From: a virus
Strand: one strand, 5' to 3'
DNA: 23,213 nucleotides
IMG/VR virus record: IMGVR_UViG_3300009339_000008
Coordinates: 1 to 23,213 of that record
Under the pieces are notes generated by a model, which saw nothing but the letters and a program-made list of their open reading frames with translations, did no database searches and had not been told where the DNA came from. The position numbers and the translations under genes are program-made. Shown in pieces: positions 1,442 to 17,971 of the stretch. The first letter of the stretch is position 1. Every line of letters starts with the position of its first letter.

Positions 1442-1453
1442 GGAGAAAAAGAT

Positions 1454-3481: not shown

Positions 3482-3682
3482 ATGAAAATCAAAGACGCAC
3501 CATATTCAAATGATCAACTGTTTGATCAACCAGAACCTGGATTAATAAAACAAGTATTTGTAGAATATAGAAGCAAACCCAAAGGTGTAGAAGTAATTAC
3601 AACTACTAGAAACTATCATGGAACTGATGATTACTTTGATAGTGTAACAGTGGAATTTTTACAAACACATGCCACTAAGTAA
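3482..3682 (+). CDS. Unknown 66-residue protein overlapping the large terminase start
   Basis: The frame runs from ATG 3482 to TAA 3680-3682 and overlaps the first 14 bases of the large terminase gene, a typical coupling arrangement. The product is acidic to neutral and soluble, with predicted strand segments (LIKQVFVEYRSK, GVEVITTTRNY, FDSVTVEFL). No family is recognised. There is no convincing Shine-Dalgarno site; the start is preceded by GAGAACCCCCA. A small head-assembly or terminase-accessory protein is possible from position only. Confidence 0.55.
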   Translation: MKIKDAPYSNDQLFDQPEPGLIKQVFVEYRSKPKGVEVITTTRNYHGTDDYFDSVTVEFLQTHATK

Positions 3683-4904
3683 ACCACAACAAAAGATATT
3701 TGATGATTCGAGTCGCTTCCGTGTAGTAAGTGCAGGTAGACGCTTTGGTAAAAGTTTCTTAAGTGTATGGGAAATGGCTAGAGCAGCCAGATATCCAAAT
3801 CAAAAAGTAATGTATGTTGCACCCAGTTATAGACAAGCCAAAAGTATTATATGGGAAGAACTAAAGAATCAATTAATAAGCAAACGCTGGATCAAAAAAA
3901 TAAACGAAAGTGAATTGAGTATACTGTTAGTAAATGGCAGTACAATAATACTTCGCAGTGCTGACGCAGGGGAGAGTATCCGTGGGTTGGAGTTCGACCT
4001 AGTAATATGTGATGAGATGGCTTTCTTTCCAAATGGAAGCAGTGTATGGACAGATATTATAAGACCAACACTATCAAGCAGACCAGGATCAAAAGCATTG
4101 TTTATTAGTACACCTCAAGGTATGGGTAACTTCTTTTATGACTTGTATCAACAAGGACATACTGTAGAAGATTGGAGCAGTCATCAATATACAACTGCTG
4201 AAGGTGGTAATGTTCCAGAAGAAGAGATACTAGCCGCCAAGCGAGATTTAGATACAAAAACATATTTGCAAGAATATGAAGCAAGTTTTCAAAGCTCAGG
4301 TAATGTTATATACTATGCATTCAAACCAGATAACATACGCAAGTTTGAACATGAGATTCCAAATCAATTACATGTGGGACTTGACCTCAATGTTAGCAAA
4401 ATGGTCGCTATAGTATGTGCAAAGTATACAGATGGATTACATATAATAGATGAAGTAGTATTACGCAATACTAACACAGATGAAATATGTCAAGCATTGC
4501 GAGAACGGTACCCTGGTAAACGCATATACATATATGCAGATCCGGCTGGTAAGCAAAGGCGTACAAGTGCAAGAGATAACACTGATCATACCATAATAAC
4601 ACAATGGGGTATGGAGTTAAGATCACCGCGAGCACATCCACTAGTTAAAGATAGAATCAATGCAGTAAACAGACTGTTATGCAATGCAGAAGAACAAAGA
4701 CATTTGTTTGTGGATCCACAGTGTAAAGAAAGCATAGAAGCATTAAGCAAACAACAATACAAGCCCGGCACAAACATTCCTATAAAAGACGCAGAATTTG
4801 GTTATGATGGTGTAAATGATGGTATAGGATACGCAGTAAGTTATCTATATCCATTGCGTAAAGAATACACACAACGCACACAAAAGGTATTTGGAGCCTG
4901 GTAA
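3669..4904 (+). CDS. Terminase large subunit (packaging ATPase-nuclease)
   Basis: This 411-residue protein drives DNA into the prohead and cuts the concatemer. The N-terminal ATPase shows a Walker A of the terminase type, SAGRRFGKS (residues 21-29), a Walker B with catalytic acid LVICDE (111-116) and the coupling motif STP (147-149). The C-terminal RNase H-like nuclease shows the expected spaced acidic residues: D239 in GLDLN, D291 in YADPAG and D380/D384 in YDGVNDGIGYA. Both domains appear intact. The start is ATG 3669, inside the end of the upstream small gene. The gene is the last before the regulatory island at 4905-6563 and is separated from the small subunit by about 2.7 kb. Known terminases act at the portal vertex, whose gene follows at 7001. 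Confidence 0.93.
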   Translation: MPLSKPQQKIFDDSSRFRVVSAGRRFGKSFLSVWEMARAARYPNQKVMYVAPSYRQAKSIIWEELKNQLISKRWIKKINESELSILLVNGSTIILRSADAGESIRGLEFDLVICDEMAFFPNGSSVWTDIIRPTLSSRPGSKALFISTPQGMGNFFYDLYQQGHTVEDWSSHQYTTAEGGNVPEEEILAAKRDLDTKTYLQEYEASFQSSGNVIYYAFKPDNIRKFEHEIPNQLHVGLDLNVSKMVAIVCAKYTDGLHIIDEVVLRNTNTDEICQALRERYPGKRIYIYADPAGKQRRTSARDNTDHTIITQWGMELRSPRAHPLVKDRINAVNRLLCNAEEQRHLFVDPQCKESIEALSKQQYKPGTNIPIKDAEFGYDGVNDGIGYAVSYLYPLRKEYTQRTQKVFGAW

Positions 4905-4921
4905 AAAATAGCTAAAAAAGG

Positions 4922-4950
4922 TTGACAATAGCAAGAATTCTTGCTATAAT
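4922..4950 (+). promoter_or_regulatory. Consensus promoter P1 with a 20-bp palindromic operator in its spacer
   Basis: TTGACA (4922-4927) and TATAAT (4945-4950) are both perfect sigma-70 boxes with a 17-nt spacer. The perfect palindrome ATAGCAAGAATTCTTGCTAT (4928-4947) fills the spacer and overlaps the -10, as expected of a repressor site that blocks polymerase. The preceding AAAAGGTTGACAA is repeated at P2. The predicted start of transcription is near 4957. Confidence 0.85.
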
Positions 4951-4956
4951 ATGTTT

Positions 4957-5041
4957 ATAAATTAACCCACAGTGCATCTCTCCTATTGCAAGCGTTAATT
5001 CTCTAATGTTAAACATTGCAGGATGTATTGTGGGTTTTTTT
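4957..5041 (+). ncRNA. Candidate about 85-nt small RNA ending in an intrinsic terminator
   Basis: A transcript from P1 would start near 4957 and end at the seven T residues at 5035-5041. No ribosome site with a usable frame lies between. The arms 4964-4978 and 5022-5036 pair over 15 bp with two G-U pairs (AACCCACAGTGCATC with GATGTATTGTGGGTT). The 43-nt apical region can form a further short stem, TGCAA (4987-4991) with TTGCA (5016-5020). The outer stem and U-run work as an intrinsic terminator, so this unit is closed: promoter, operator, RNA, terminator. A related stem-loop closes the neighbouring ParB-like gene at 6165. The alternative is that it is only a leader with strong attenuation ahead of P2 and the ParB-like gene. 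Confidence 0.6.
4964..5041 (+). terminator. Intrinsic terminator closing the P1 transcript
   Basis: A 15-bp stem (4964-4978 with 5022-5036) is followed by seven T residues (5035-5041). It would stop both the P1 transcript and read-through from the large terminase gene before P2. The stem is longer and the loop far larger than in a minimal terminator, which is why the whole is also listed as a candidate RNA. Confidence 0.75.
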
Positions 5042-5065
5042 GTAGCTAAAAAGTAGCACAAAAGG

Positions 5066-5094
5066 TTGACAAATACAGTATAATACTGTATATT
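5066..5094 (+). promoter_or_regulatory. Promoter P2 with a 19-bp palindromic operator, driving the ParB-like gene
   Basis: TTGACA (5066-5071) and TATATT (5089-5094) are 17 nt apart. The perfect interrupted palindrome ATACAGTAT-A-ATACTGTAT (5073-5091) occupies the spacer and enters the -10. Transcription would start near 5101, about 70 bases before the ParB-like start codon. Confidence 0.8.
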
Positions 5095-5099
5095 GTTAT

Positions 5100-5127
5100 A
5101 TGTAAGTTGGAAATATTGAACTTACAT
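5100..5127 (+). promoter_or_regulatory. 5'-terminal mRNA hairpin of the ParB-like transcript
   Basis: ATGTAAGTT (5100-5108) and AACTTACAT (5119-5127) pair perfectly over 9 bp around a 10-nt loop, exactly where the P2 transcript should begin. Hairpins at the extreme 5' end of bacterial mRNAs are known to slow decay. The start codon and its strong ribosome site AAAGGAGG (5158-5165) are outside the stem. Confidence 0.5.
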
Positions 5128-5170
5128 TTTATAAACCGGCCGTAGTAACGAGCCAATAAAGGAGGACATT

Positions 5171-6118
5171 ATGTCACAAACTAAGATAAAAGTCGTTGAT
5201 CAGACTGTAAATGATCTACCAATCCCAAACATTTTAAAAAAGTATGTAGGCAAGGAAACAGGTACTAAAGCATCAGCTCAAACAGTATCAGTTAATATTC
5301 CTATGCATATTGCTCAGCGTGATATACATACCAAAGACATTATCAAATGGGTTACTAAAAGCAAAGGCTTTGATTGGAGCTTGTTTGGTGTTGTCACAGT
5401 AGTAGAAGACAGCAAAGGTAATCAAACTTGTTTGGATGCACAACACAGATTACAAATGATCCGTTGGATCTTACCACATGTAACACAAGTACCAGCACAT
5501 ATTATTCAGACAGATGATCCTGCATATGCAAGTAAAGTATTTGCAGGTAAAAATGGTACTATGGTTAGAAGATTAAGTGCCGAAGAACTGTTTTGGGCAC
5601 AAACAATTGAAGGTGATAAACATGCATTGTTTCTAAAAGATATATTAGAAGTTGCAGAAATCAGTTGTGGTAAAGTAAATGAGGGTCCAGATAGAAAAAC
5701 TGTTAAGTATGCTAGTTTTGATAAAAGTGTTAAAATGGGTGCAGATGAAACTGTTTATGCAATTGAATTATTGCAAGAAGCATATCCTAAATCAAACATA
5801 CAAGCACAAGTTATGTGTGGATTAACAAGATTGTTTACACTTAAAAAGTATGAAGATCAAGGTAATCCAGATACTGAACTTGGTAAATTGTTTCATGAAT
5901 GGTTTACACAGATTCTTGCACCAGGACACAAACTAGCAGAATTAAACTTTCCTGAGTATCATAATACAAATGTGTGGCACAATGGTGTTGCATATGGATT
6001 ACAAGAGAAGTTTAACCACTGGTTAGATCGCTTAGGTCACAAGCGTGTACATATTAAGCAAATCAGAGATATCTATCGAGCAGGTATAACTGGAAAAATT
6101 GCTGAAGATGATGAATAA
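5171..6118 (+). CDS. ParB/sulfiredoxin-fold-like protein (DUF6551-like), independently transcribed cargo gene
   Basis: This 315-residue protein resembles phage and plasmid proteins with a ParB N-terminal-like domain. VNIPMHIAQRDI (41-52) is followed by a W-x-x-x-x-G region, FGVVTVVEDSKGNQT (72-86) and the signature CLDAQHRLQMI (87-97), which corresponds to the D-G-Q-H-R box of the family. VPAHII (107-112) and a helical C-terminal two thirds follow. In the family the box binds nucleotide (CTP in true ParB), but this is not proven for phage members. No separate helix-turn-helix is obvious, so DNA binding is uncertain. The gene has its own operator-bearing promoter, a 5' hairpin, a strong ribosome site 5 bases before the start and a terminator, and it interrupts the usual large terminase-portal order. 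It is therefore a moron-like unit, perhaps autoregulated through the P2 palindrome. Confidence 0.7.
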   Translation: MSQTKIKVVDQTVNDLPIPNILKKYVGKETGTKASAQTVSVNIPMHIAQRDIHTKDIIKWVTKSKGFDWSLFGVVTVVEDSKGNQTCLDAQHRLQMIRWILPHVTQVPAHIIQTDDPAYASKVFAGKNGTMVRRLSAEELFWAQTIEGDKHALFLKDILEVAEISCGKVNEGPDRKTVKYASFDKSVKMGADETVYAIELLQEAYPKSNIQAQVMCGLTRLFTLKKYEDQGNPDTELGKLFHEWFTQILAPGHKLAELNFPEYHNTNVWHNGVAYGLQEKFNHWLDRLGHKRVHIKQIRDIYRAGITGKIAEDDE

Positions 6119-6164
6119 ATACTAGGTCTCAATAGAGATACCAAGTAAGAATTTATCATTACAT

Positions 6165-6205
6165 AACCCACAGTGTAGTACAAGATGCATTGTGGGTTTT
6201 TCTTT
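6165..6205 (+). terminator. Intrinsic terminator after the ParB-like gene, sister of the 4964-5041 stem-loop
   Basis: AACCCACAGTGTA (6165-6177) pairs with TGCATTGTGGGTT (6186-6198), including two G-U pairs, around an 8-nt loop, and is followed by TTTTTCTTT. The left arm starts with the same AACCCACAGTG and the right arm ends with the same ATTGTGGGTTTTT as the 4964-5041 element, so the two copies appear related by duplication or recombination. Confidence 0.8.
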
Positions 6206-6210
6206 GGCCA

Positions 6211-6246
6211 TAAAAAAAGCCCCACAGTCCCAAAACCGTAGGGCTT
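6211..6246 (-). terminator. Minus-strand intrinsic terminator
   Basis: Read on the minus strand, AAGCCCTACGG (6246-6236) pairs with CTGTGGGGCTT (6227-6217), with two G-U pairs, around the loop TTTTGGGA. The run of T ends at 6212. On the plus strand the stem is followed by TATAAA rather than T, so the signal is directional. Its only candidate client is the minus-strand transcript from P3. Confidence 0.7.
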
Positions 6247-6250
6247 ATAA

Positions 6251-6265
6251 ATGAGTTTAGTTTAA
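6251..6265 (+). repeat. Left copy of a 15-bp inverted repeat
   Basis: ATGAGTTTAGTTTAA here is the exact reverse complement of 6536-6550. Its first 10 bases are also complementary to 6304-6313, so three sites can pair in alternative ways. Confidence 0.75.
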
Positions 6266-6381
6266 ACATGAAATACTATTTGATTGGAGAAATAAAACAA
6301 TGTCTAAACTCATTTTGTTTGTATAACACTCGTTATACAATGTAACTTTCGTTACACAACTGTACTCAACAATCAAACACT

Positions 6382-6410
6382 AGTATAACACTGTTATATG
6401 GTGTTGTCAA
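6382..6410 (-). promoter_or_regulatory. Minus-strand promoter P3 with a 15-bp palindrome
   Basis: On the minus strand TTGACA (6410-6405) and TATACT (6387-6382) are 17 nt apart. The palindrome TATAACA-C-TGTTATA on the plus strand (6384-6398) covers the -10 and most of the spacer. The box is preceded by GG as in the other three promoters. Transcription would start near 6375 and proceed towards the 6211 terminator. Confidence 0.75.
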
Positions 6411-6429
6411 CCGAGTATGTATATATTTA

Positions 6430-6438
6430 TGCTAGAAT
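6430..6438 (+). promoter_or_regulatory. Possible extended -10 promoter for the endonuclease/portal operon
   Basis: TGCTAGAAT fits an extended -10 (TGN plus TAGAAT) but has no -35 at the right distance. A promoter is needed somewhere here, because terminators at 6165 lie upstream and a long structural operon begins at 6564. ATAAATA motifs follow at 6442 and 6471. This is a weak candidate only. Confidence 0.25.
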
Positions 6439-6485
6439 ATCATAAATACATTATCCAAATAAAAAAGATGATAAATAACAATGTA

Positions 6486-6505
6486 ATTAACTCTGCTCAG
6501 TTAAT
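6486..6505 (+). other. Leader hairpin upstream of the endonuclease/portal operon
   Basis: ATTAACT (6486-6492) and AGTTAAT (6499-6505) form a perfect 7-bp stem with the loop CTGCTC. It lies in the non-coding 6412-6563 stretch, in which I see no frame with a ribosome site. It has no U-run and so is not a terminator. Confidence 0.35.
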
Positions 6506-6535
6506 GGCTAGAAGCATATGTCCAGTGGTGACAGA

Positions 6536-6550
6536 TTAAACTAAACTCAT
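6536..6550 (+). repeat. Right copy of a 15-bp inverted repeat, next to a ribosome site
   Basis: TTAAACTAAACTCAT is the exact reverse complement of 6251-6265 and ends just before the AAGAGGA ribosome site of the endonuclease gene. The minus-strand RNA carries AATGAGTTTAG, complementary to the last 10 bases of this copy, so pairing in trans is possible. Confidence 0.7.
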
Positions 6551-6563
6551 AAGAGGAAAACAG

Positions 6564-6584
6564 ATGAAAACATCAAAACAATTA
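6564..6584 (+). repeat. 21-bp direct repeat, copy 1 (endonuclease start)
   Basis: These 21 bases, starting ATGAAAACATC and ending CAATTA, recur exactly at 7001-7021. Both copies are start codons plus six more codons (MKTSKQL) of their genes. Confidence 0.9.
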
Positions 6585-7001
6585 AGTTCGGTGCATCAGA
6601 AAGCATATCGTGATCACAAATCAAATGCTAAAAGACGCAACATCGAATTCAACTTCACATACGAAGAATGGTTAAACTTTTGGGGCTCAGACATTAACAA
6701 CAGAGGCACTGGAAGTTTAGATTTACAAATGTGTAGATACAATGATACAGGTGCTTATAGCCCTGATAATGTATTTAAAGCTACACACAGAGAAAATGCT
6801 CAACAACAAGATAATAGTAATTATAATGTAGTTCCTGCTACATTGGCAAAACATAAAAAAGTACACACAGACAAAGGTATATTTGAAAGCGTTAAAGAAG
6901 CTGGAGAATACTTTGGATTCAGTGATGTATATGGGACAGTTCGCAACCGTTGTTTAAGCAATAACTATAGCAACTGGTATTATGTAGGAGAAACAGTATA
7001 A
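6564..7001 (+). CDS. Small HNH-like / NUMOD endonuclease, probable free-standing homing endonuclease
   Basis: This 145-residue protein has a basic start (YRDHKSNAKRRNIEF, 15-29) and a segment GSLDLQMCRYNDTGAYSPDNVFKATHRENAQQ (50-81). I know this L-x-M-x-R-x-x-D-x-G-x-Y-x-x-x-N-V-x-x-x-T-x-x-x-N pattern from small phage nucleases of the HNH superfamily, although a canonical HNH triad is not complete. Residues 103-141 (DKGIFESVKEAGEYFGFSDV, then NNYSNWYYV) match the NUMOD type of DNA-binding repeat common in homing endonucleases. The first 11 residues, MKTSKQLSSVH, copy those of the portal protein (MKTSKQLAHVH), and 21 bases are identical. The element therefore appears to have entered at the portal start and used its initiation region. 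Its stop overlaps the portal ATG (TAATG). Confidence 0.7.
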   Translation: MKTSKQLSSVHQKAYRDHKSNAKRRNIEFNFTYEEWLNFWGSDINNRGTGSLDLQMCRYNDTGAYSPDNVFKATHRENAQQQDNSNYNVVPATLAKHKKVHTDKGIFESVKEAGEYFGFSDVYGTVRNRCLSNNYSNWYYVGETV

Positions 7002-7021
7002 TGAAAACATCAAAACAATTA
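7001..7021 (+). repeat. 21-bp direct repeat, copy 2 (portal start)
   Basis: An exact copy of 6564-6584. Beyond it the two genes still agree in spirit (x-x-V-H) but not in third positions, so the duplication is not brand new. Confidence 0.9.
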
Positions 7022-8461
7022 GCTCATGTTCACGCTGGGTATGCAGAATATGCCTATAGATGGGACTATTATATGCGTTCATACATGGGAGCAGAAGAAT
7101 ACAGAGATGGTGCATACTTGCGTAAATATATTGCAGAAGATCAAGCACCAGGAAATCAATATCAACAAAGATTAGTAGACACAGCGTTGCAAAACCATGT
7201 GCGTCAAATAGTAGATGCATATAGAAGTTTCTTATTCCGTAACCCACCTAGAAGAACAATGGGTTCATTAGCGGATAATCCATTTGCAATGCAATTTTTA
7301 GAAAATACAGATTTAGATTATACAACATTAAATGACTTCATGCGTGAAGTTAATGATATGGTAACAATTTATGGTGGTGCCTGGATCGCATTAGATAGAC
7401 CGGCCTACCAAGTGGAAACTGTTGCACAGGAAATAGCTGAAGATATCAGGACATATGCTACACTCTACAGTCCAACAAATGTAAGAGACTGGAGTTTTAG
7501 CAAAAAAACAAATGGTCAGAGAGTATTAGATTATGTAAAAGTAATTGATGAATCATATGAAGATTATGATGTAATACGCTGTTGGCATCCTGATATGATT
7601 GAAGTATATACAGTACAAAAAAGTGAGAGTGCTGATTATACTTTACGAGAAACTGGTATACATGAACTAAACAATGTTCGTGACAGTATAGCAATTGATT
7701 ATGGTAAAATACTCAATTATACTGAGTATGAAAACACACTAGGCTATGTTCCGTTTATACATGTGCAAACGGACAAAAGTTTCCACAAGGGCATTGGTAC
7801 AAGTGCAGTAGGTGATGTATGCGATTTAACTCGCGAAATATACAACTTGACATCGGAATTGTATCAGACGATTCGCATATCGTCTGCCCCTAGTATTGTG
7901 GCCGAACCTGCTGCAGAAATAAATGGTGGCGCTGGAGCTATTATTACAATTCCAGAAGACACTACAAACACACCATACTTGCTACAACCAACTGGTGCAA
8001 GTGTTGATGGTATCTTAAAAAGCATACAACAAAAAGTAGATGCTATTGATGAGTTATCACACTTAACTGCTATTAAGGCCAAAAAAGGTCCTCAAAGTGG
8101 AATCAGTTTACAAGTAGAAAAAGAAATGTTGAATGCCAAGTTGGCAGACACAGCTGGTGTATTAGAAGCAGCAGAAAAGAAAATGTGGATGATGTGGTTC
8201 GATTTACAAGGAATGGAAGCACCAGAAGAATTCTACATTGAATATGAAAAGAGTTTCGATCTCAGAGACAAATCACAAGAACTAGCATTGTATACAAATG
8301 CAGCAGCGGCTGTACCACATGATAGTTTCAAACACTATATGCACAATGAAATTGCAAGGTTAATGATCACAGATGAAAGTGATTTGCAAGTGGTGTTAGA
8401 TGAGATCGCAAAAGATCACGCTAATATGGATGTTGAAGTACCAGGTACTGACAACTCATAA
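7001..8461 (+). CDS. Portal protein
   Basis: This 486-residue protein would form the dodecameric ring at the capsid vertex through which the large terminase pumps DNA. The length and pattern fit the SPP1 gp6-like portal group. An N-terminal segment with YQQRLVDTALQNHVRQIVDAYRSFLF (53-78) precedes NPPRR, a DNA-channel clip region lies in the middle, and a helical region follows (about 330-430; HLTAIKAKKGPQSGISLQVE). An acidic C-terminus closes the protein. The start is ATG 7001 with TAGGAG (6985-6990) 10 bases upstream, inside the endonuclease gene. Its first codons are duplicated in that gene. It is followed by a stem-loop at 8477 and the scaffold gene, the usual portal-scaffold-capsid order. 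Confidence 0.88.
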   Translation: MKTSKQLAHVHAGYAEYAYRWDYYMRSYMGAEEYRDGAYLRKYIAEDQAPGNQYQQRLVDTALQNHVRQIVDAYRSFLFRNPPRRTMGSLADNPFAMQFLENTDLDYTTLNDFMREVNDMVTIYGGAWIALDRPAYQVETVAQEIAEDIRTYATLYSPTNVRDWSFSKKTNGQRVLDYVKVIDESYEDYDVIRCWHPDMIEVYTVQKSESADYTLRETGIHELNNVRDSIAIDYGKILNYTEYENTLGYVPFIHVQTDKSFHKGIGTSAVGDVCDLTREIYNLTSELYQTIRISSAPSIVAEPAAEINGGAGAIITIPEDTTNTPYLLQPTGASVDGILKSIQQKVDAIDELSHLTAIKAKKGPQSGISLQVEKEMLNAKLADTAGVLEAAEKKMWMMWFDLQGMEAPEEFYIEYEKSFDLRDKSQELALYTNAAAAVPHDSFKHYMHNEIARLMITDESDLQVVLDEIAKDHANMDVEVPGTDNS

Positions 8462-9273: not shown

Positions 9274-10125
9274 ATGGCAAACGAACTAGACACAGGTAAC
9301 TCAGCTGGCGAATTATTTGAAAATATTACTCAATCAGCTCAGTTTACTATGAACGAAAATGCTTTACTAAAAAACTTAGTAACAGTATATGACATGCAAG
9401 GCACACCAGGCTTAACAGCAAGTGTTCCTGTATGGCCAAGAGTGACAGGACTATCTGCTTTGGCAGCTGGTGCTGATCTTTCTAACACAGACATCTCTGC
9501 AACAGCAGTAGATATCACAGCAGCAGAATATGGTGCAATGACAACTATCCAAGATATCGTTATTGAATCATCTCCTATCGCAGTAGCCCAAGACGCTGGT
9601 GCAGTATTAGGTGGCGGTGTTGCTCAAGCAATGGACGAAGTTATTGTTGACTTATTCACATCAGCTTCAACTGATGTAGGTCCAGGTGCAGGCGCAGAGC
9701 TTACTATGGATCACATCCTAAAAGCAGCAGCTACACTAAGAAAAAACAGTGTACCAATGCAAGGAATCGTAGCAGTACTTTCTCCTTCAGCGGCATACAA
9801 CCTTAAGAAAACACTAGTTAACGCTGGTGGTTCATTATCAAATAACGATCTTGCAAATGCAGCAGCTCGTGACTACTACTTAGGTACAGTTGCCGGCGTT
9901 GCTATGTATGAATCAGCATCAATTGATGTTGATGGTTCAGATGATGCAGTTTCGGCTGTATTCCATCCAGCAGCTATCGGTATGGTAATGAAGCGTGATT
10001 TAAGAATTGCTACACAAAGAGACGAATCAATTCGTGGATTTGAAGTAGTTTCTTCAGCGGCATTTGGCGCTGGTATCTTAGATCAAGCTAAGATTGTGAA
10101 GATGACTTCAGACTCTGCAATTTAA
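9274..10125 (+). CDS. Major capsid protein (HK97-fold type)
   Basis: This 283-residue protein follows the scaffold, as in most tailed phages. It opens with an N-terminal arm (residues 1-45). Then come a beta-rich E-loop-like region with repeated T/D/A (SNTDISATAVDITAAEYGAM), a helix-rich P-domain (DAGAVLGGGVAQAMDEVIVDLF; HILKAAATLRKN), the segment GIVAVLSPSAAYNLKK and an A-domain with FHPAAIGMVMKRDLRIATQRDESIRGFEVVSSAAFGAGI. A C-terminal helix-strand pattern with R-x-E/D-x-x-x-R-G and a closing G-A-G-I/V is characteristic of coat proteins of this fold. About 22 of its 24 serines use TCN codons, whereas neighbouring genes favour AGT/AGC. AGGAG lies 10 bases before ATG 9274. Confidence 0.85.
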   Translation: MANELDTGNSAGELFENITQSAQFTMNENALLKNLVTVYDMQGTPGLTASVPVWPRVTGLSALAAGADLSNTDISATAVDITAAEYGAMTTIQDIVIESSPIAVAQDAGAVLGGGVAQAMDEVIVDLFTSASTDVGPGAGAELTMDHILKAAATLRKNSVPMQGIVAVLSPSAAYNLKKTLVNAGGSLSNNDLANAAARDYYLGTVAGVAMYESASIDVDGSDDAVSAVFHPAAIGMVMKRDLRIATQRDESIRGFEVVSSAAFGAGILDQAKIVKMTSDSAI

Positions 10126-11483: not shown

Positions 11484-11810
11484 ATGGTACGCTCAAGCAA
11501 CCCTAACAAGATCTTTAGAGATATTGAGAAACAGCTTGGGCGTGCCGTTAATGAAACAATTGAAGAGATAAATACAATTGCAATAAAAGAAACCCCGGTT
11601 GATACAGGGTATGCCAAAAGTAGATGGCGTACTGTGGGACGATATAAGTTAGGAGATACTATGAATGTTATCGACAATAATGCCACATATATAGGAATAC
11701 TTGATGGAGTGTTGGGTACACCAACTTCTAAACAAGCACCTGCAGGTATTATTAATCCTAAACTTAACAACAACATAAGAAGCATAACAAACAGACGGAG
11801 AAAATTATGA
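11484..11810 (+). CDS. HK97 gp10-like neck protein
   Basis: This 108-residue basic protein contains the pattern IKETPVDTGYAKSRWRTVG (about residues 34-52), which is the hallmark of the HK97 gp10-like head-tail neck family. The family bridges adaptor and tail terminator. It is unusual that the gene lies after the major tail protein; in most phages it comes before the tail terminator. AAGGA lies 10 bases before the start. Its end overlaps the next gene as ATGA. Confidence 0.75.
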   Translation: MVRSSNPNKIFRDIEKQLGRAVNETIEEINTIAIKETPVDTGYAKSRWRTVGRYKLGDTMNVIDNNATYIGILDGVLGTPTSKQAPAGIINPKLNNNIRSITNRRRKL

Positions 11811-12187
11811 CGGATAAAAGAGTAGAAGCAAGAAAAAAAGCCAAAGCAAGAGCAATTAACCTAGCAACAGCACACTTTGAAACAATGTTAGCTGGTGCAA
11901 TGCGTGGACCGATTGCAGTTCCTGAATGGGACTTAGATGTATACTATAAAACTACATCAACTATGGCTCAAGAAGCTAGAGTTATTGAATTAACACAAGA
12001 AGGTAAAACCACAGAAGGATTAGTGGTACAATTAATTATGAAGGCTTTAGATGAAGATGGTGATCCATTATTTGATATGGGTGACAAACTAAAGCTAATG
12101 AACAATGTAGATCCAAGCGTTATCTTGCGTGTAGTAACAAGCATGAATAACGATGTTAAAGCAGAGGAAGCCAAGTCGGGAAACTAA
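11807..12187 (+). CDS. Tail assembly chaperone G (short form)
   Basis: This 126-residue protein begins with a basic helix (MTDKRVEARKKAKARAINLA). It continues with the tail-chaperone core: WDLDVYYKTTSTMAQEARVIELTQEGKTTEGLVVQLIMKAL, then DPLFDMGDKLKLMNNVDPSVILRVVTSMN. In lambda-like phages such a protein coats the tape measure and keeps the tube protein soluble. Its TAA at 12185-12187 directly follows the slippery heptamer GGGAAAC, so part of the ribosomes should continue into the extended GT form. It overlaps the previous gene (ATGA at 11807-11810), with GGAG upstream. Confidence 0.82.
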   Translation: MTDKRVEARKKAKARAINLATAHFETMLAGAMRGPIAVPEWDLDVYYKTTSTMAQEARVIELTQEGKTTEGLVVQLIMKALDEDGDPLFDMGDKLKLMNNVDPSVILRVVTSMNNDVKAEEAKSGN

Positions 12188-12369: not shown

Positions 12370-15195
12370 ATGGCCAGCACATACCAGTTAATTATTGAGG
12401 CAGTCGATCAAACATCTGCCCCAATGAACAAGATCGAGAAAGCATTAAAAAGCACAAATACTCGAACTACCAAACTAAACGCAACATTAAAGAAAACAAA
12501 CAACGGATTAAAAACATTTGGTAAGGCTGGTGCAAAAGGATTAGGCACACTTACCAAAGGACTTGGAGTAGCAGCCGCAGCCGCAACTGCAACAGCAGGT
12601 GCTTTTGCATTATTGGCCAAGTCATCATTAAACACATTAGACACACTAGGTAAAACAGCAAGTAAACTGGGTGTAACAACAGAATTCCTATCAAAATATC
12701 AAGTAATAGCCAATAGAGCAGGTATTAGTACTGAAACCTTTAATATGGGTTTACAGAGATTCTTGCGTAGATTAGGTGAAGCACAACAGGGCACGGGTGA
12801 ACTATTAAAACCATTGCAACAAATGGGTATTAATATGAAAGATGCTAATGGAAACTTTAGAGAAGGCACAGATGTATTTGCTGAATATATGACTAAATTA
12901 GCAGGTACTGAAAGCAGTACTCAAAGACTAGCATTAGCAATGAAAGGTTTTGACTCAGAAGGTGTTGCAATGGTTAACATTGCAGAAATGGGTGCAGACA
13001 AGATTGCATTAATTGGGCGTAGAGCCGAAGAAGCAGGACTAGTTATAAGTGGTAAACTAACAAAATCAGCAGCTGAAGCCAATGATGCATTAAGTGATTT
13101 ATTTGATTTTGGTAAAGGTTTCAAACTACAGTTCTTTGGAGCATTAAGCGAAACAATAGAAGAATTAAGCGAGATGCTTAGAGAGAAAATTAAGTTAAAG
13201 GTTGAAGCCGCAGGTGGTATGAAAGCGTTCGCAAATGACATGGCAGCGGCGTTTTTAGATGGTACAAGCAAGTTTGTAACTGCAACTGCTAAAGTTATAG
13301 ATCAATTTATAGATGCATTCAATACATTTGGTAATATATTCAAACAAATAGTAATCAGTATTAGTAAAATTCCAGGCGTAGGCTTTGATGCAACATTTGG
13401 TGATAAAGCAAGTATAAAAGCCAAATTAGAATTAGATAAAGCAAGTGCTCAAGCAAGCCTAGATGAGTTACAAGCAACATTTGATGACTCAATGAAACGA
13501 GCAATGTTGACTGGTGACTTTACTAGTGTTGCAGACATAGGCACTATGCAAGCAATAGAAAGCTATTTGGCTACTATTCAAAAAGCTGATGAAGAATTAG
13601 CTAAGTTAGAAGATGGTAGTGTAGTATTCTTTGAAAAAGTAACAAGCAGCAGTACTGCGGCTCAAGATGCAGTATCAGGATTTAATGACAAACTACTTAA
13701 ACAGGCAGCAGGATTGCGTAAAGTTGCAGATGAGTCTAGAGTAGCTGAAGCTATAGAAAATTTAAGTGATGCTAATGACGGATGGGCAAACAGTGTAGAA
13801 ACACAAACTGATAAACAAGAAGAACAAAATAAAACTGTAAAAGCAGCTCTATTACCATTGAATCAATTTGATCAGTTTATGCGAGACTTAACAAACAGTG
13901 CAGGTGCAGCCGCAACTAAAATAATGCACGAACAACAAGCAGTTGCAGAACTAGATAGACTATTAGCCGCAGGTAGAATAAACATTGATACATATGCACA
14001 AGCTATGATTATGTTAGGCAAGGGTGCAAGTCAAGCCACTGAAGAAATATCAAAAATGGCTCCACATGTAAGTCAATTTGATCAATATATGCGAGATTTA
14101 ATTGATAGTTCAAATGCAGCAGTAACACAACAAGGCTTTGAAATAATGGCTCTACAAGAGCTTGATAGATTATTACAAGCAGGTAAAATCAGTTTAGATG
14201 CATATGCAGCCGCAAAAGAAAGCATTAGACCATATGACTTTACCAAAGATGCGCCACCAACACCGCCACAAATGTTCGATGAAGGATTAACTCCACAACA
14301 AAACTTAGATCTATTAACACAACAATTACAAAAAGAAGCTGAACTATTACAAATGAAAAAGGATATGCTTGCATTAGCAGGTCCTGAAAATGAAGAAGCA
14401 ATTAGAAAAAGATTAGGCTTAGAAGAAGAATTAGGTTTCCAAGATCGATTAGTTGAAACATATCAAAAGAATCACGACGCTTTAGAAGATGTACAAGAGG
14501 CTTTAGGTAATATTAGTCAATTGGCAAGAGATGCTGGTGTAAGTGAAGAGTTCTTAACTGAAAAACTAAAAGCACAAGAAGAACAATTATTAAAACAATT
14601 GGATCTTTACAAAGAAAAAGCATTAACAACAAGTGAAATTATTGAACAAGGTTTTGAAGGTATGAGTAACAGTATTGGTAGTGAACTAGCAAGTGCAATT
14701 ATGAACGGTGAGAATATGTTTGATGCACTAGGTAATGCATTCAAGAGAACACTAGATAATATACTACAACAAATATTAACAAGTCAAATAAACAGCTTAT
14801 TAGCACAAATGTTTAATATAGGACCACAAGCAGGAATGAGCGGTGGTGGTGGGCTTGGCGGCCTTATAACCAAGTTCCTAGGAACTCCAACAGTGGGTGC
14901 ACCAATGGGTGGATTCAACCCATTTGGTTTCTTAACAAGAGCAGCTGGTGGACCAGTATCAAGTTCAAGAAGTTACTTAGTAGGAGAACAAGGTCCCGAA
15001 TTATTTTCGCCAACTAGTTCAGGATCTATCACTAGTACAGACGAGGTAAATAATGGTAATGGAACAGTAGTGTTCAATTTAAATAGTGTGGATACGCAAA
15101 CAGGAGTTGAATTCTTATTAAAGAACAAACCACAAATAATTAATATGGTATCGCAAGGATTTAACCAACGCGGTAGACAAGGAATAACAAGTTAA
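12370..15195 (+). CDS. Tape measure protein
   Basis: This 941-residue protein spans the tail lumen and sets tail length; by the roughly 1.5 A per residue rule it implies a tail near 140 nm. It starts after GGGGAGG and directly abuts the GT stop. A hydrophobic Ala-rich segment lies at 66-83, followed by long helical stretches. A duplicated 70-residue-period block occurs at about 498-625. A second coiled region spans about 640-760. The C-terminal GGPVSSSRSYLVGEQGPELF (about 858-877) is the typical late motif of tape measure proteins. No transglycosylase or peptidase domain is visible. Codon use is AGT-rich, like the rest of the tail genes. Confidence 0.9.
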   Translation: MASTYQLIIEAVDQTSAPMNKIEKALKSTNTRTTKLNATLKKTNNGLKTFGKAGAKGLGTLTKGLGVAAAAATATAGAFALLAKSSLNTLDTLGKTASKLGVTTEFLSKYQVIANRAGISTETFNMGLQRFLRRLGEAQQGTGELLKPLQQMGINMKDANGNFREGTDVFAEYMTKLAGTESSTQRLALAMKGFDSEGVAMVNIAEMGADKIALIGRRAEEAGLVISGKLTKSAAEANDALSDLFDFGKGFKLQFFGALSETIEELSEMLREKIKLKVEAAGGMKAFANDMAAAFLDGTSKFVTATAKVIDQFIDAFNTFGNIFKQIVISISKIPGVGFDATFGDKASIKAKLELDKASAQASLDELQATFDDSMKRAMLTGDFTSVADIGTMQAIESYLATIQKADEELAKLEDGSVVFFEKVTSSSTAAQDAVSGFNDKLLKQAAGLRKVADESRVAEAIENLSDANDGWANSVETQTDKQEEQNKTVKAALLPLNQFDQFMRDLTNSAGAAATKIMHEQQAVAELDRLLAAGRINIDTYAQAMIMLGKGASQATEEISKMAPHVSQFDQYMRDLIDSSNAAVTQQGFEIMALQELDRLLQAGKISLDAYAAAKESIRPYDFTKDAPPTPPQMFDEGLTPQQNLDLLTQQLQKEAELLQMKKDMLALAGPENEEAIRKRLGLEEELGFQDRLVETYQKNHDALEDVQEALGNISQLARDAGVSEEFLTEKLKAQEEQLLKQLDLYKEKALTTSEIIEQGFEGMSNSIGSELASAIMNGENMFDALGNAFKRTLDNILQQILTSQINSLLAQMFNIGPQAGMSGGGGLGGLITKFLGTPTVGAPMGGFNPFGFLTRAAGGPVSSSRSYLVGEQGPELFSPTSSGSITSTDEVNNGNGTVVFNLNSVDTQTGVEFLLKNKPQIINMVSQGFNQRGRQGITS
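13861..14025 (+). repeat. Tape measure internal repeat, unit 1
   Basis: It encodes FDQFMRDL (from residue 500) to ELDRLLAAGRINIDTYAQA. Unit 2 lies exactly 210 bases (70 residues) further on. Confidence 0.85.
14071..14235 (+). repeat. Tape measure internal repeat, unit 2
   Basis: It encodes FDQYMRDL (from residue 570) to ELDRLLQAGKISLDAYAAA, aligned with unit 1 without gaps. The stretch CAATTTGATCA and ATGCGAGA is shared at DNA level. Confidence 0.85.
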
Positions 15196-15205
15196 GGAGT
15201 AAAAT

Positions 15206-17971
15206 ATGGCAACATTAAAAGACATATGGGATTACCCAAATAACTCATCAAGTGGTTATGCACAGAACACAGATAACTGGAGCGGTGACAACAGTTATGG
15301 TTTAGATAAAAGAATCGAAGATTTAAGAACTGGTACATATACAGCGTGGCCAAATATAAACCCAAGTACTGATTTAACTCGTAATGGAGTAATATTAGAC
15401 ACTCAGGATTTATCTACCGCTCTTTCACAGTATAGCAATTATGTTGATTCGTTCAGTGATGATACAAACTTAACTTTTAGACAAATATATAAACACGAAT
15501 TAGCTGAAATGAGTTCTTTCGTAAATGGTGCAAAAGTAACAGCAGTCGTAACAGAAATTGATACTGTTAGTGGATTACCAGCAGTTAAAATGACAACAGA
15601 TAGTACAACTCCACATAATTTAACATCGGGTGATGCAATTAGTGGATTCGCTTTTAGTAATGATATTGCAGATGATAGTTATTATGAAAGTATGAATTAT
15701 GACCAACATTATGTAAGAGTAATTGATGCAAATAATGTGTATTTGTACGAGGATAGTGCGTTAACAACACCAGCATATTTCGGTACAAGTGAAGGAACAG
15801 CAAAAGCAGAGCACATTCCAACAATGTATAGTATATTTCCACACGATGATGGCACATATGATGGTGCATTAATAGCCTTTCCAAACGAAGGATTTCCTGG
15901 AACATTAGAAGTTGTACCTGGAAGCTCTCCAACTGCGTACCAAGTGACACCACAAACCAGTTTAACAGATCAAATTCCAAATGGTACAAAATTTATAGTA
16001 ACTGCTCAACATACTGGAGCAGGTACAGCAGCAAACCCAAACCCTGGTGGAACATTCGGCAGTGCAACAGCTGGTGATGAAGTATATCTAAAGTATTTTA
16101 GAAAAAATGTATATAAAATGTATACAGATAGTGCAATGACAGTACCGTATACAGTAGCATCAAACCCGTACTCATATGTATTTGATAGTGGAACTCAAAC
16201 AATTTCCGCATCAACAACATATAAAACAGTGAGTGGAGTTATAAGTGACACAGGTTTACAAAACTTTATTAAATCACACGCTATGTTGTTTCAACACGAT
16301 AATTTACCAGCGTACGGCGAACCATTATATCAAGGATTATGTAGAGTTCAATTAGTAACAGGTACAAGCACAAGTACAACAAAAACAATTCCTAGTAATT
16401 TAGATGAAAGTGAATACTTTCATTATAGCTTTAATAGTGTAACAAATGCCTTTGTAGTATACGAGGATCTATATAATGAACCAAACAGTACAAGTATCTG
16501 GACAACTGGAGCATATGGTGATTATTATCACAACCAGTATACAGATAACTTTCTTACACCGCCGTCAGTTGATGAACCAAAAGGACTTGAAATTGATACA
16601 GTAACATCGGGCGCATATAGATATAAAGTTGAATTTTGTAGTATGTTCGAGGTATCACCACATGATGATGAAACAACAACTGGTGGATTATGGAGAGATG
16701 ATGTATCACAGACATTGGCTGTGGGTTCACAAGCTGGTGGCATTTTAACAAACCCATTAATTGGAAAATACGATGTATTTTTTGACCACACAGGTGTAAC
16801 AAGTACAAGCAGTACTTGGCCAAGTGTAACTGATTTAACTGCGGGCATAACAAATAACACAACAATGTTCTTACCGGGCAATCAAGTATACAGTTATCAA
16901 GACAGTAGTAATGTAACACAATATGCAGCTGGCAATATTGATTTCACTAAACGATGGAGACCCAGGTATTTAGACGGTCCAGCAGTAGAGCAATCAGTAA
17001 CTTGGATTACAAACCCAGTTGTTGTTCCAAATGTAAACAGCAGTGGATATGTTGATAACACATATACAATAACCAACCCTGGAGCAATAACTTTAGGAAA
17101 TTATTATCAAAGTATTTACAGCGATGCAACAGTATCAGAGTCAGCGTGGCTCACTAATATTGAAAATGGGCCATTCGTGTCTGGAACCACTTTCCCAAAT
17201 TTTAATTGGAATTGGGGTGTAAGTAAGTTCCAACAACGAGCTGATGAGTATGTAGCACCAACACCTTATTGGGAGGACTTTTTTGATAGAGGCAATGAAT
17301 GGGATACTGAAGCATACGATGGTGCCAATGCTAAACAGTGGCCCAAGCATATAACACCAAGCAGTATTAAAGTAGTACAAGCAACACCAAGTAGTGTAAC
17401 AACAAGTCAAAGTGGCGTTAAGTATGTTAGAGCAAGTGGTATAATAAGACACCAAATACAAGTTGAGTATCCACCAATGGATGAAACGGCTTTTAGAGAA
17501 TTTGAAGCAACAGTAGCCGCAGCAAGAGGACAAGCAACACCTTTCTATTTTGATTTCTATGGTTATGGCAGTGGAAGCACAACAATTGCATTTAATAGAA
17601 TAGATGATAATAATATATATAATACTGTTGCATTAAGATATCCAGTAACAAAGGGTGATAACTATATAACGCTTGAAGGGTATCAAGCAAATCAAACAGA
17701 TGCAGTATTACCAGGCGAGTATATGGTGTTAGGTGGATCAGCTGATGGTGGATTATTACAAACAGTAAGTGGTGATGACTCAAATGTGTTCGGTGAAATT
17801 AAATTTAGAATGGCAGTGGGTTCAAAATTTGATTACCCAGCAGGCGGCCGATTGCATAAAAACCCTGCACACGCTATTGTAACTATAGCAGAAGATACAT
17901 TAGAGTATACTATAGGAACTGATCAATTGTATAGATTTAGTGTACGATTTGACTGGGATCAATGGAAATAA
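15206..17971 (+). CDS. Large distal-tail-like structural protein
   Basis: This 921-residue protein stands between the tape measure and the hub genes, the place of lambda M or of the DUF2460 gene in gene transfer agents. Both relatives are far shorter (about 100-210 residues). Most of it is beta-rich, Thr/Ser/Tyr-rich sequence with recurrent short motifs such as VYLYEDSALTTPAYF (about 176-190) and VYKMYTDSAMTVPYT (about 300-314). I have seen these motifs in large structural proteins of marine phages. The last 240 residues (from YWEDFFDRGNEWD, about 684) contain IKVVQATP and MDETAFREFEATVAAARGQATPFYFDFYG, ending in FSVRFDWDQWK. This end looks like the ancestral distal-tail domain. The long N-terminal part may be an acquired, host-facing extension; this is inferred. 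Confidence 0.6.
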   Translation: MATLKDIWDYPNNSSSGYAQNTDNWSGDNSYGLDKRIEDLRTGTYTAWPNINPSTDLTRNGVILDTQDLSTALSQYSNYVDSFSDDTNLTFRQIYKHELAEMSSFVNGAKVTAVVTEIDTVSGLPAVKMTTDSTTPHNLTSGDAISGFAFSNDIADDSYYESMNYDQHYVRVIDANNVYLYEDSALTTPAYFGTSEGTAKAEHIPTMYSIFPHDDGTYDGALIAFPNEGFPGTLEVVPGSSPTAYQVTPQTSLTDQIPNGTKFIVTAQHTGAGTAANPNPGGTFGSATAGDEVYLKYFRKNVYKMYTDSAMTVPYTVASNPYSYVFDSGTQTISASTTYKTVSGVISDTGLQNFIKSHAMLFQHDNLPAYGEPLYQGLCRVQLVTGTSTSTTKTIPSNLDESEYFHYSFNSVTNAFVVYEDLYNEPNSTSIWTTGAYGDYYHNQYTDNFLTPPSVDEPKGLEIDTVTSGAYRYKVEFCSMFEVSPHDDETTTGGLWRDDVSQTLAVGSQAGGILTNPLIGKYDVFFDHTGVTSTSSTWPSVTDLTAGITNNTTMFLPGNQVYSYQDSSNVTQYAAGNIDFTKRWRPRYLDGPAVEQSVTWITNPVVVPNVNSSGYVDNTYTITNPGAITLGNYYQSIYSDATVSESAWLTNIENGPFVSGTTFPNFNWNWGVSKFQQRADEYVAPTPYWEDFFDRGNEWDTEAYDGANAKQWPKHITPSSIKVVQATPSSVTTSQSGVKYVRASGIIRHQIQVEYPPMDETAFREFEATVAAARGQATPFYFDFYGYGSGSTTIAFNRIDDNNIYNTVALRYPVTKGDNYITLEGYQANQTDAVLPGEYMVLGGSADGGLLQTVSGDDSNVFGEIKFRMAVGSKFDYPAGGRLHKNPAHAIVTIAEDTLEYTIGTDQLYRFSVRFDWDQWK

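Follow-up and report, generated by a model that had tools for sequence, protein, structure and literature searches.

In the alpha-r14/cuckoo RNAs of Alphaproteobacteria, an invariant anti-Shine-Dalgarno motif is left unpaired and the stem sequences are highly variable; one of these RNAs, NfeR1, base-pairs with mRNAs at their translation initiation regions and thereby silences them (PMC10746234). The defining feature of Yfr1/Yfr10, small marine RNAs of cyanobacteria, is a conserved motif that contains UCCU and is unpaired. In Yfr10 this motif alone is kept, atop a stem, while the rest of the RNA drifts, and mutation of the UCCU abolishes target binding (PMC6778093). A function is known for only a few phage-encoded small RNAs. 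The c4 RNA of P1/P7 is a phage antisense RNA whose loop sequences are complementary to the ribosome-binding site of a dedicated target, the ant mRNA, and CfrI of cyanophage S-PM2 is antisense to psbA and lies beside a homing-endonuclease gene (PMC12197685). Our literature searches found no phage-encoded small RNA of known function for phages related to the Pelagibacter phages. The phi29 packaging RNA is a structured phage RNA similar in size to the unit described here.

The window, by which we mean the whole 23,213-nt stretch of an IMG/VR virus record that was analysed, comes from a tailed phage and contains the following structural and packaging genes:

625-972: small terminase
3669-4904: large terminase, Terminase_6/T4 type
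7001-8461: portal
9274-10125: major capsid
12370-15195: tape measure

By portal protein, the closest cultured relatives are the Pelagibacter phages HTVC026P, HTVC111P, HTVC202P and HTVC112P (33-35% identity), together with phage DSL-LC06. Searches with the portal and terminase recovered several dozen related contigs, and no portal relatives were found in the cellular genome collection. One related contig, G001 (24,338 nt), carries at both ends a tail gene homologous to 15206-17971, so the genomes of this group are probably ~25 kb long and the window nearly complete. Two IMG/VR contigs, L090 (G020), with two portals in opposite orientation, and L213, with two terminases in opposite orientation, are probably assembly chimeras. 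The interval between the terminase and portal genes holds cargo whose gene content differs from phage to phage. In the window it includes gene 5171-6118 (plus strand), whose 315-aa product matches nothing in Pfam or PHROG and has no relative among cultured phages; no DNA match to 5171-7000 was found among cultured phages either. The structured unit lies in the same interval, with these parts and neighbours:

6382-6410, minus strand: promoter of the small RNA, with -35 TTGACA at 6410-6405, a 17-nt spacer and -10 TATACT at 6387-6382
6212-6375, minus strand: predicted small RNA of ~163 nt, its start placed from the -10 element and its end from the T run
6358-6374, minus strand: 5' hairpin from the fold, its loop holding the conserved (GU)UGAGUA
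6340-6357, minus strand: GNRA tetraloop hairpin GUAAC-GAAA-GUUAC, from the fold
6319-6340, minus strand: GAGU tetraloop hairpin UGUAUAAC-GAGU-GUUAUACA, from the fold; a recurrent module whose stems differ in other phages
6304-6315 with 6249-6260, minus strand: long perfect 12-bp stem enclosing the conserved loop domain 6249-6315
6286-6292, minus strand: conserved UUUCUCC, with CUCC (6289-6286) predicted to be unpaired in an apical loop; the anti-Shine-Dalgarno element
6210-6246, minus strand: intrinsic terminator of the small RNA, a 13-pair stem (6246-6217) followed by T7
6165-6205, plus strand: convergent intrinsic terminator, closing gene 5171-6118
6466-6563, plus strand: conserved leader, upstream of an HNH-like gene here and of the portal gene in relatives; outside the small RNA

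A sequence-only reading of the window had picked out this locus as an independent, structured minus-strand RNA. The strong promoter that it proposed is present, with a sigma-70 match of 11/12 and a TG preceding the -10 element, and the promoter block recurs in L004, L019 and L007. Both proposed tetraloop hairpins (GAAA and GAGU loops) appear in the fold, as does the 12-bp stem; the GNRA hairpin is not present in L004 or L019. The directional terminator was found on the minus strand only and, with the convergent terminator standing at 6165-6205, the small RNA stops short of gene 5171-6118. A pseudoknot between the 5' end and a loop had also been suggested. The complementarity UUUGAUUG/CAAUCAAA exists, but the pairing is lost in L004 and L019 and the pseudoknot is therefore unsupported. 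The RNA overlaps no long frame, and the claim that it has no translatable one stands: an 18-codon frame (AUG at 6313) lacks a Shine-Dalgarno sequence and reads AUG-GGU-UAA in L004 and L019. Under the criteria used, no other minus-strand promoter-terminator unit was found in the window.

The folding energy of RNA 6376-6208 is -51.1 kcal/mol, compared with -30.5 +/- 4.1 kcal/mol for dinucleotide shuffles (z = -5.1), and 0/200 shuffles folded as well. In a structure scan of 578 segments of 160 nt covering both strands, the region was among the best, with z-scores of -7.0 for 6091-6250 (plus strand) and -3.9 for 6171-6330 (minus strand). The idea that its density of structure lies far above the rest of the window is only partly right, in that 4891-5130 (plus strand) is equally structured (-5.2 and -5.5). 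With its own promoter and intrinsic terminator, an intergenic position and no conserved frame, 6212-6410 on the minus strand is very probably a self-contained RNA gene.

The whole unit is kept in L004/L009 and L019 at ~70-72% DNA identity. L007 keeps a 91-nt promoter-hairpin block at 80% identity in inverted orientation, whereas the portal leader downstream of it is 97% identical and in the normal orientation, indicating that the unit is an independent gene and not antisense to its neighbours. Plus-direction units occur in L010, L020, L043 and L021, and L013, L014 and L022 each have one plus-strand and one minus-strand unit facing each other. Most minus-strand units carry GUUGAGUA near the RNA 5' end, where it is also found in L004, L019, L007, L010, L011, L013(-), L014(-), L017(-) and L022(-). 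Pairing of GUUGAGUA with UACUCAA upstream of the portal Shine-Dalgarno sequence was considered and set aside; it amounts to 9-10 bp in L010 and L011 (by eye) and to 4-5 bp in the window and L009.

Compensatory changes support an independent RNA read from the minus strand, and they affect both helices that the sequence-only reading had named for a covariance test. In hairpin 6319-6327/6332-6340, the closing pair changes from C-G to U-A in L010, and in the long stem 6249-6260/6304-6315 an A-U pair becomes G-C in L004 and L019. The terminator helix shows one double change and three one-sided G-U changes (L004, L019, L007), and in the long stems five double changes were counted for the L041/L044/L056 group and three for L013/L014/L022. 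Because MAFFT columns fail to align the changing stems, helices were counted on hand-aligned arms, and because these arms were picked as helices, the evidence consists only of changes between homologous units; the sample is small, with 3-5 sequences per group and some cells related by descent. Within the aligned helices of four homologous groups, 13/13 counted G-U cells belong to the strand of the promoter and terminator, which is the minus strand in the window, and no mirror cell (A-C there, G-U on the other strand) occurs inside any helix. The compensatory changes and the uniform direction of the G-U pairs together fix the transcribed strand, on which the secondary structure covaries.

The long stems span 8-15 bp, or up to ~25 bp with a bulge, and their sequences are unrelated between lineages. 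A stem-enclosed (A/U)UUUCUCCA or a close variant is found in the window, L004, L019, L010, L013+, L014+, L022+ (where the loop variant is UUCUCCA) and L020, and also in L043, L041, L044, L056 and L045/G006. In L007, ACUCCUAUU in the terminator loop replaces the motif, and L049 is without UUUCUCC. When inverted repeats of at least 9 bp around a word were counted, GGAGAAA/UUUCUCC proved to be the most often enclosed among the 35 permutations of the 7-mer, at 10 distinct sites versus an average of ~1. The predicted unpaired probability of CUCC averages 0.82, compared with 0.51 for the enclosed domain, and is the higher of the two in 11/13 units. The U and A runs beside CUCC form a short apical stem of varying sequence (GAUU/AAUC, GUUU/AAAC, UUAUUU/AAAUAA), as in the mini-hairpins GAUU-CUCC-AAUC of G003, GUUU-CUCCA-AAAC of L043 and UUAUUU-CUCCA-AAAUAA of L004. 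CAU, the complement of the start codon, is frequent upstream of UUUCUCC though not universal, and is suggestive only.

Hairpins with a GAGU loop recur with the loop constant and stems of differing sequence. There is also a second kind of unit (type II), in which the loop domain on a long variable stem contains UAUUUCCA and UAC(A)GCUCAU; these units adjoin type I units or sit elsewhere in the genome:

L013, 4157-4221: type II unit
L014, 724-785: type II unit
L022, 4767-4830: type II unit
L072, 716-815: type II unit
L079, 6722-6824: type II unit

The remote type II units of L072 and L079 are followed by two GAGU hairpins. In the sister phages L285, L287, L288 and L290, a small gene is preceded by a larger structured element (~260 nt) that contains U(U/C)UCUCC and a pair of GAGU hairpins; no Rfam match to it was found in L285, L287 or L290. 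The GAGU double-hairpin pattern has no match in the cellular genome collection and 8 matches in viral contigs, four of them new contigs with the larger element and U(U/C)UCUCC. Pattern TTGTATTTCTCCAAAA gave at least 80 matches in viral contigs; among those listed from outside the phage group, two have an enclosing stem of 9-10 bp and neither is unit-like. The 16-mer TTGTATTTCTCCAAAA alone is therefore not diagnostic. A tentative and perhaps unlikely generalization is that these units form a portable small-RNA family, often with two or more members per genome, in either orientation and at varied positions, with type I (UUUCUCCA loop) and type II (UAUUUCCA and UAC(A)GCUCAU) forms, in which stems are quickly replaced around an unchanging mimic of the 3' tail of 16S rRNA. 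Such a family would give phages of ~25 kb an RNA-based control of host or phage translation for very little DNA.

At the gathering threshold, no Rfam 15 family was found in the window or in 12 related loci, and at relaxed thresholds the best sub-threshold matches were leader and sRNA models at chance level. The phage units resemble the alpha-r14/cuckoo RNAs in having variable stems and an invariant loop. However, of the cuckoo motif CCUCCUCCC only CUCC is present here, and the cuckoo RNAs are cellular and display their motif in three hairpins, whereas the window unit has one CUCC loop; the phage design joins a (U)UUCUCCA loop, carried by a long stem, to GAGU hairpins and a terminator of its own. 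The ACUCCUCACAC/UCCU motif of Yfr1/Yfr10 is likewise absent, the window reading UUUCUCCAAUC. Like c4 and CfrI the unit is phage-encoded, and it lies near an HNH-like gene much as CfrI lies by a homing-endonuclease gene, but it overlaps no cis target and occurs in both orientations. It shares with the phi29 packaging RNA the nature of a structured phage RNA and is found between the terminase and portal genes; however, the terminase here is of the Terminase_6/T4 type, the unit varies in position and also occurs elsewhere in the genome, and it has no Rfam match. From these comparisons, the best reading would be that the phage RNA works like alpha-r14/cuckoo or Yfr1/Yfr10 but belongs to no described family. 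We found no such RNAs described in related phages in the literature. A family of small RNAs in phages that combines an anti-Shine-Dalgarno loop with fast-changing stems suggests convergent use of an alphaproteobacterial and cyanobacterial RNA design, and through its tetraloop and loop motifs more RNAs of this kind could be sought in uncultured phages.

CUCC is the core of the 16S anti-Shine-Dalgarno sequence, and GGAGAAA, the complement of the loop, is the Shine-Dalgarno-plus-spacer of these phages' genes, upstream of which the commonest 7-mers are AAGGAGA, AAAGGAG and AGGAGAA. Outside the units, 21/37 occurrences of GGAGAAA (57%) fall at a gene initiation region, compared with 232/1,219 (19%) for all permutations together. 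Outside the unit, the window has three plus-strand occurrences, 3/3 of them at gene starts:

1442-1448, plus strand: candidate target site GGAGAAA in the initiation region of gene 1454-2140; matched in G001
6987-6993, plus strand: candidate target site GGAGAAA in the initiation region of portal gene 7001-8461
11797-11803, plus strand: candidate target site GGAGAAA in the initiation region of gene 11807-12187

A site homologous to 11797-11803 is kept in G001, G002, G004, G007 and G010. Loop-target complementarity in the window is limited to 7 bp because the base after CUCC is usually A, which pairs with U, and the phage sites are mostly AGGAG. Longer matches are seen in L045, where 12 bp of the unit pair with the start of a neighbouring gene (UUGUAUUUCUCC with GGAGAAAUACAA), and in G016 (11 bp); no conserved single target with long complementarity was found in all members. 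Since any CUCC anti-Shine-Dalgarno loop complements ribosome-binding sites, matches at start sites are suggestive, not proof, of targeting by an element that is predicted to be accessible and complementary to initiation regions. Gene 1454-2140 (phrog_8198) and the adjacent 2152-2886 are tandem paralogues with 33-34% identity.

The reading that we prefer, with about even confidence, is that the unit encodes a trans-acting phage small RNA whose anti-Shine-Dalgarno loop would block translation of target mRNAs. Host sigma-70 RNA polymerase would transcribe it from its own strong promoter, with no phage factor needed and hence probably early, and transcription would end at the unit's own terminator. 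The RNA is predicted to fold into small tetraloop hairpins and a long stem presenting the CUCC(A) loop, the helices being backed by covariation. This loop could pair in trans with the Shine-Dalgarno core GGAG in a number of mRNAs, over a stretch that can lengthen to GGAGAAA, and precedent suggests that such pairing would cover the Shine-Dalgarno sequence so that ribosomes cannot load. Genes 1454-2140, 7001-8461 (portal) and 11807-12187 are candidate targets, and host mRNAs are equally possible ones. A family in which an anti-Shine-Dalgarno loop is the sole fixed element yields a hypothesis, open to sharp tests, of how a small marine phage might control translation.

The main rival holds that the CUCC loop and GAGU tetraloops of a structured RNA bind a protein (for example an RNA-binding protein, RNase or polymerase of phage or host) or make tertiary contacts, and that the likeness to the anti-Shine-Dalgarno sequence is incidental. 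We consider this possible, if rather unlikely. The U and A runs beside CUCC form the mini-hairpin, so that shape is kept as well as sequence, and they may be conserved for that hairpin and not for pairing; GAGU hairpins with differing stems keep the same loop, and type II units carry UAUUUCCA and UAC(A)GCUCAU instead. On the other hand, CUCC is exactly the 16S anti-Shine-Dalgarno core, GGAGAAA stands at phage starts far more often (57%) than its permutations taken together do (19%), and no candidate protein partner was found.

We give little credence to a reading in which the terminase-portal interval is a cargo hot spot and the unit a by-product of it, transcribed but either functionless or purely structural. 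The interval does hold different small genes with their own promoters, phage by phage, and L040 and more distant relatives lack the unit ahead of the portal, but a loop that stays invariant while its stems change fast and compensate bears the mark of selection on RNA. It is similarly improbable that the unit acts in cis or as DNA, for instance by regulating the portal leader or a neighbouring gene in antisense or by providing an inverted-repeat site for recombination or replication. Its position between the terminase and portal genes, beside the HNH-like gene and the conserved portal leader, would fit such a role, as would the long inverted repeats at several intergenic places in these phages. 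However, both orientations relative to the portal gene occur, the unit stops short of the convergent terminator without overlapping any long frame, and one-strand-only G-U pairs are not expected of a DNA hairpin; orientation and G-U asymmetry largely refute this proposal. A functional opposite strand, with a Shine-Dalgarno sequence and AUG (GGAGAAATAnnnATG) driving a minigene or small peptide, is very improbable and was rejected on the evidence of orientation and G-U pairs; although many units read GGAGAAAUA(n)AUG opposite the loop and AUG-codon-stop frames occur in some phages (G004, G012, G006), the frames run to 2, 8, 10, 27, 43 and 49 codons with none in L004, L019, L013 or L011, no promoter-terminator pair was found on that strand, U runs stand where A is usual before GGAG, and the G-U pairs lie on the other strand.

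The equally structured region at 4891-5130 contains a further unit:

4922-5053, plus strand: second promoter-hairpin-terminator unit, between the terminase gene and gene 5171-6118

Its promoter (4922-4950) is TTGACA-17-TATAAT, a 12/12 match, and its long hairpin-terminator encloses CUCUCC, the inner part reading AUCUCUCCUAUUGC. The second unit is not in the relative G001, where other sequence occupies the interval.

The HNH-like gene 6564-7021 (phrog_16521, weakly phrog_3118) separates the conserved leader from the portal gene and is present in the nearest relatives only. It opens with a duplicate of the first 21-32 nt of portal (ATGAAAACATCAAAACAATTA...), as though a recent insertion had rebuilt the start of the portal gene. 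The leader itself, 6466-6563 (GATGATAAATAACAATGTAATTAAC...), is among the group's most conserved non-coding DNA, with 88-93% identity across ~43 nt in distant relatives. It contains small hairpins and an ACUC...GAG hairpin covering the Shine-Dalgarno sequence, and is possibly a late promoter with a regulated leader.
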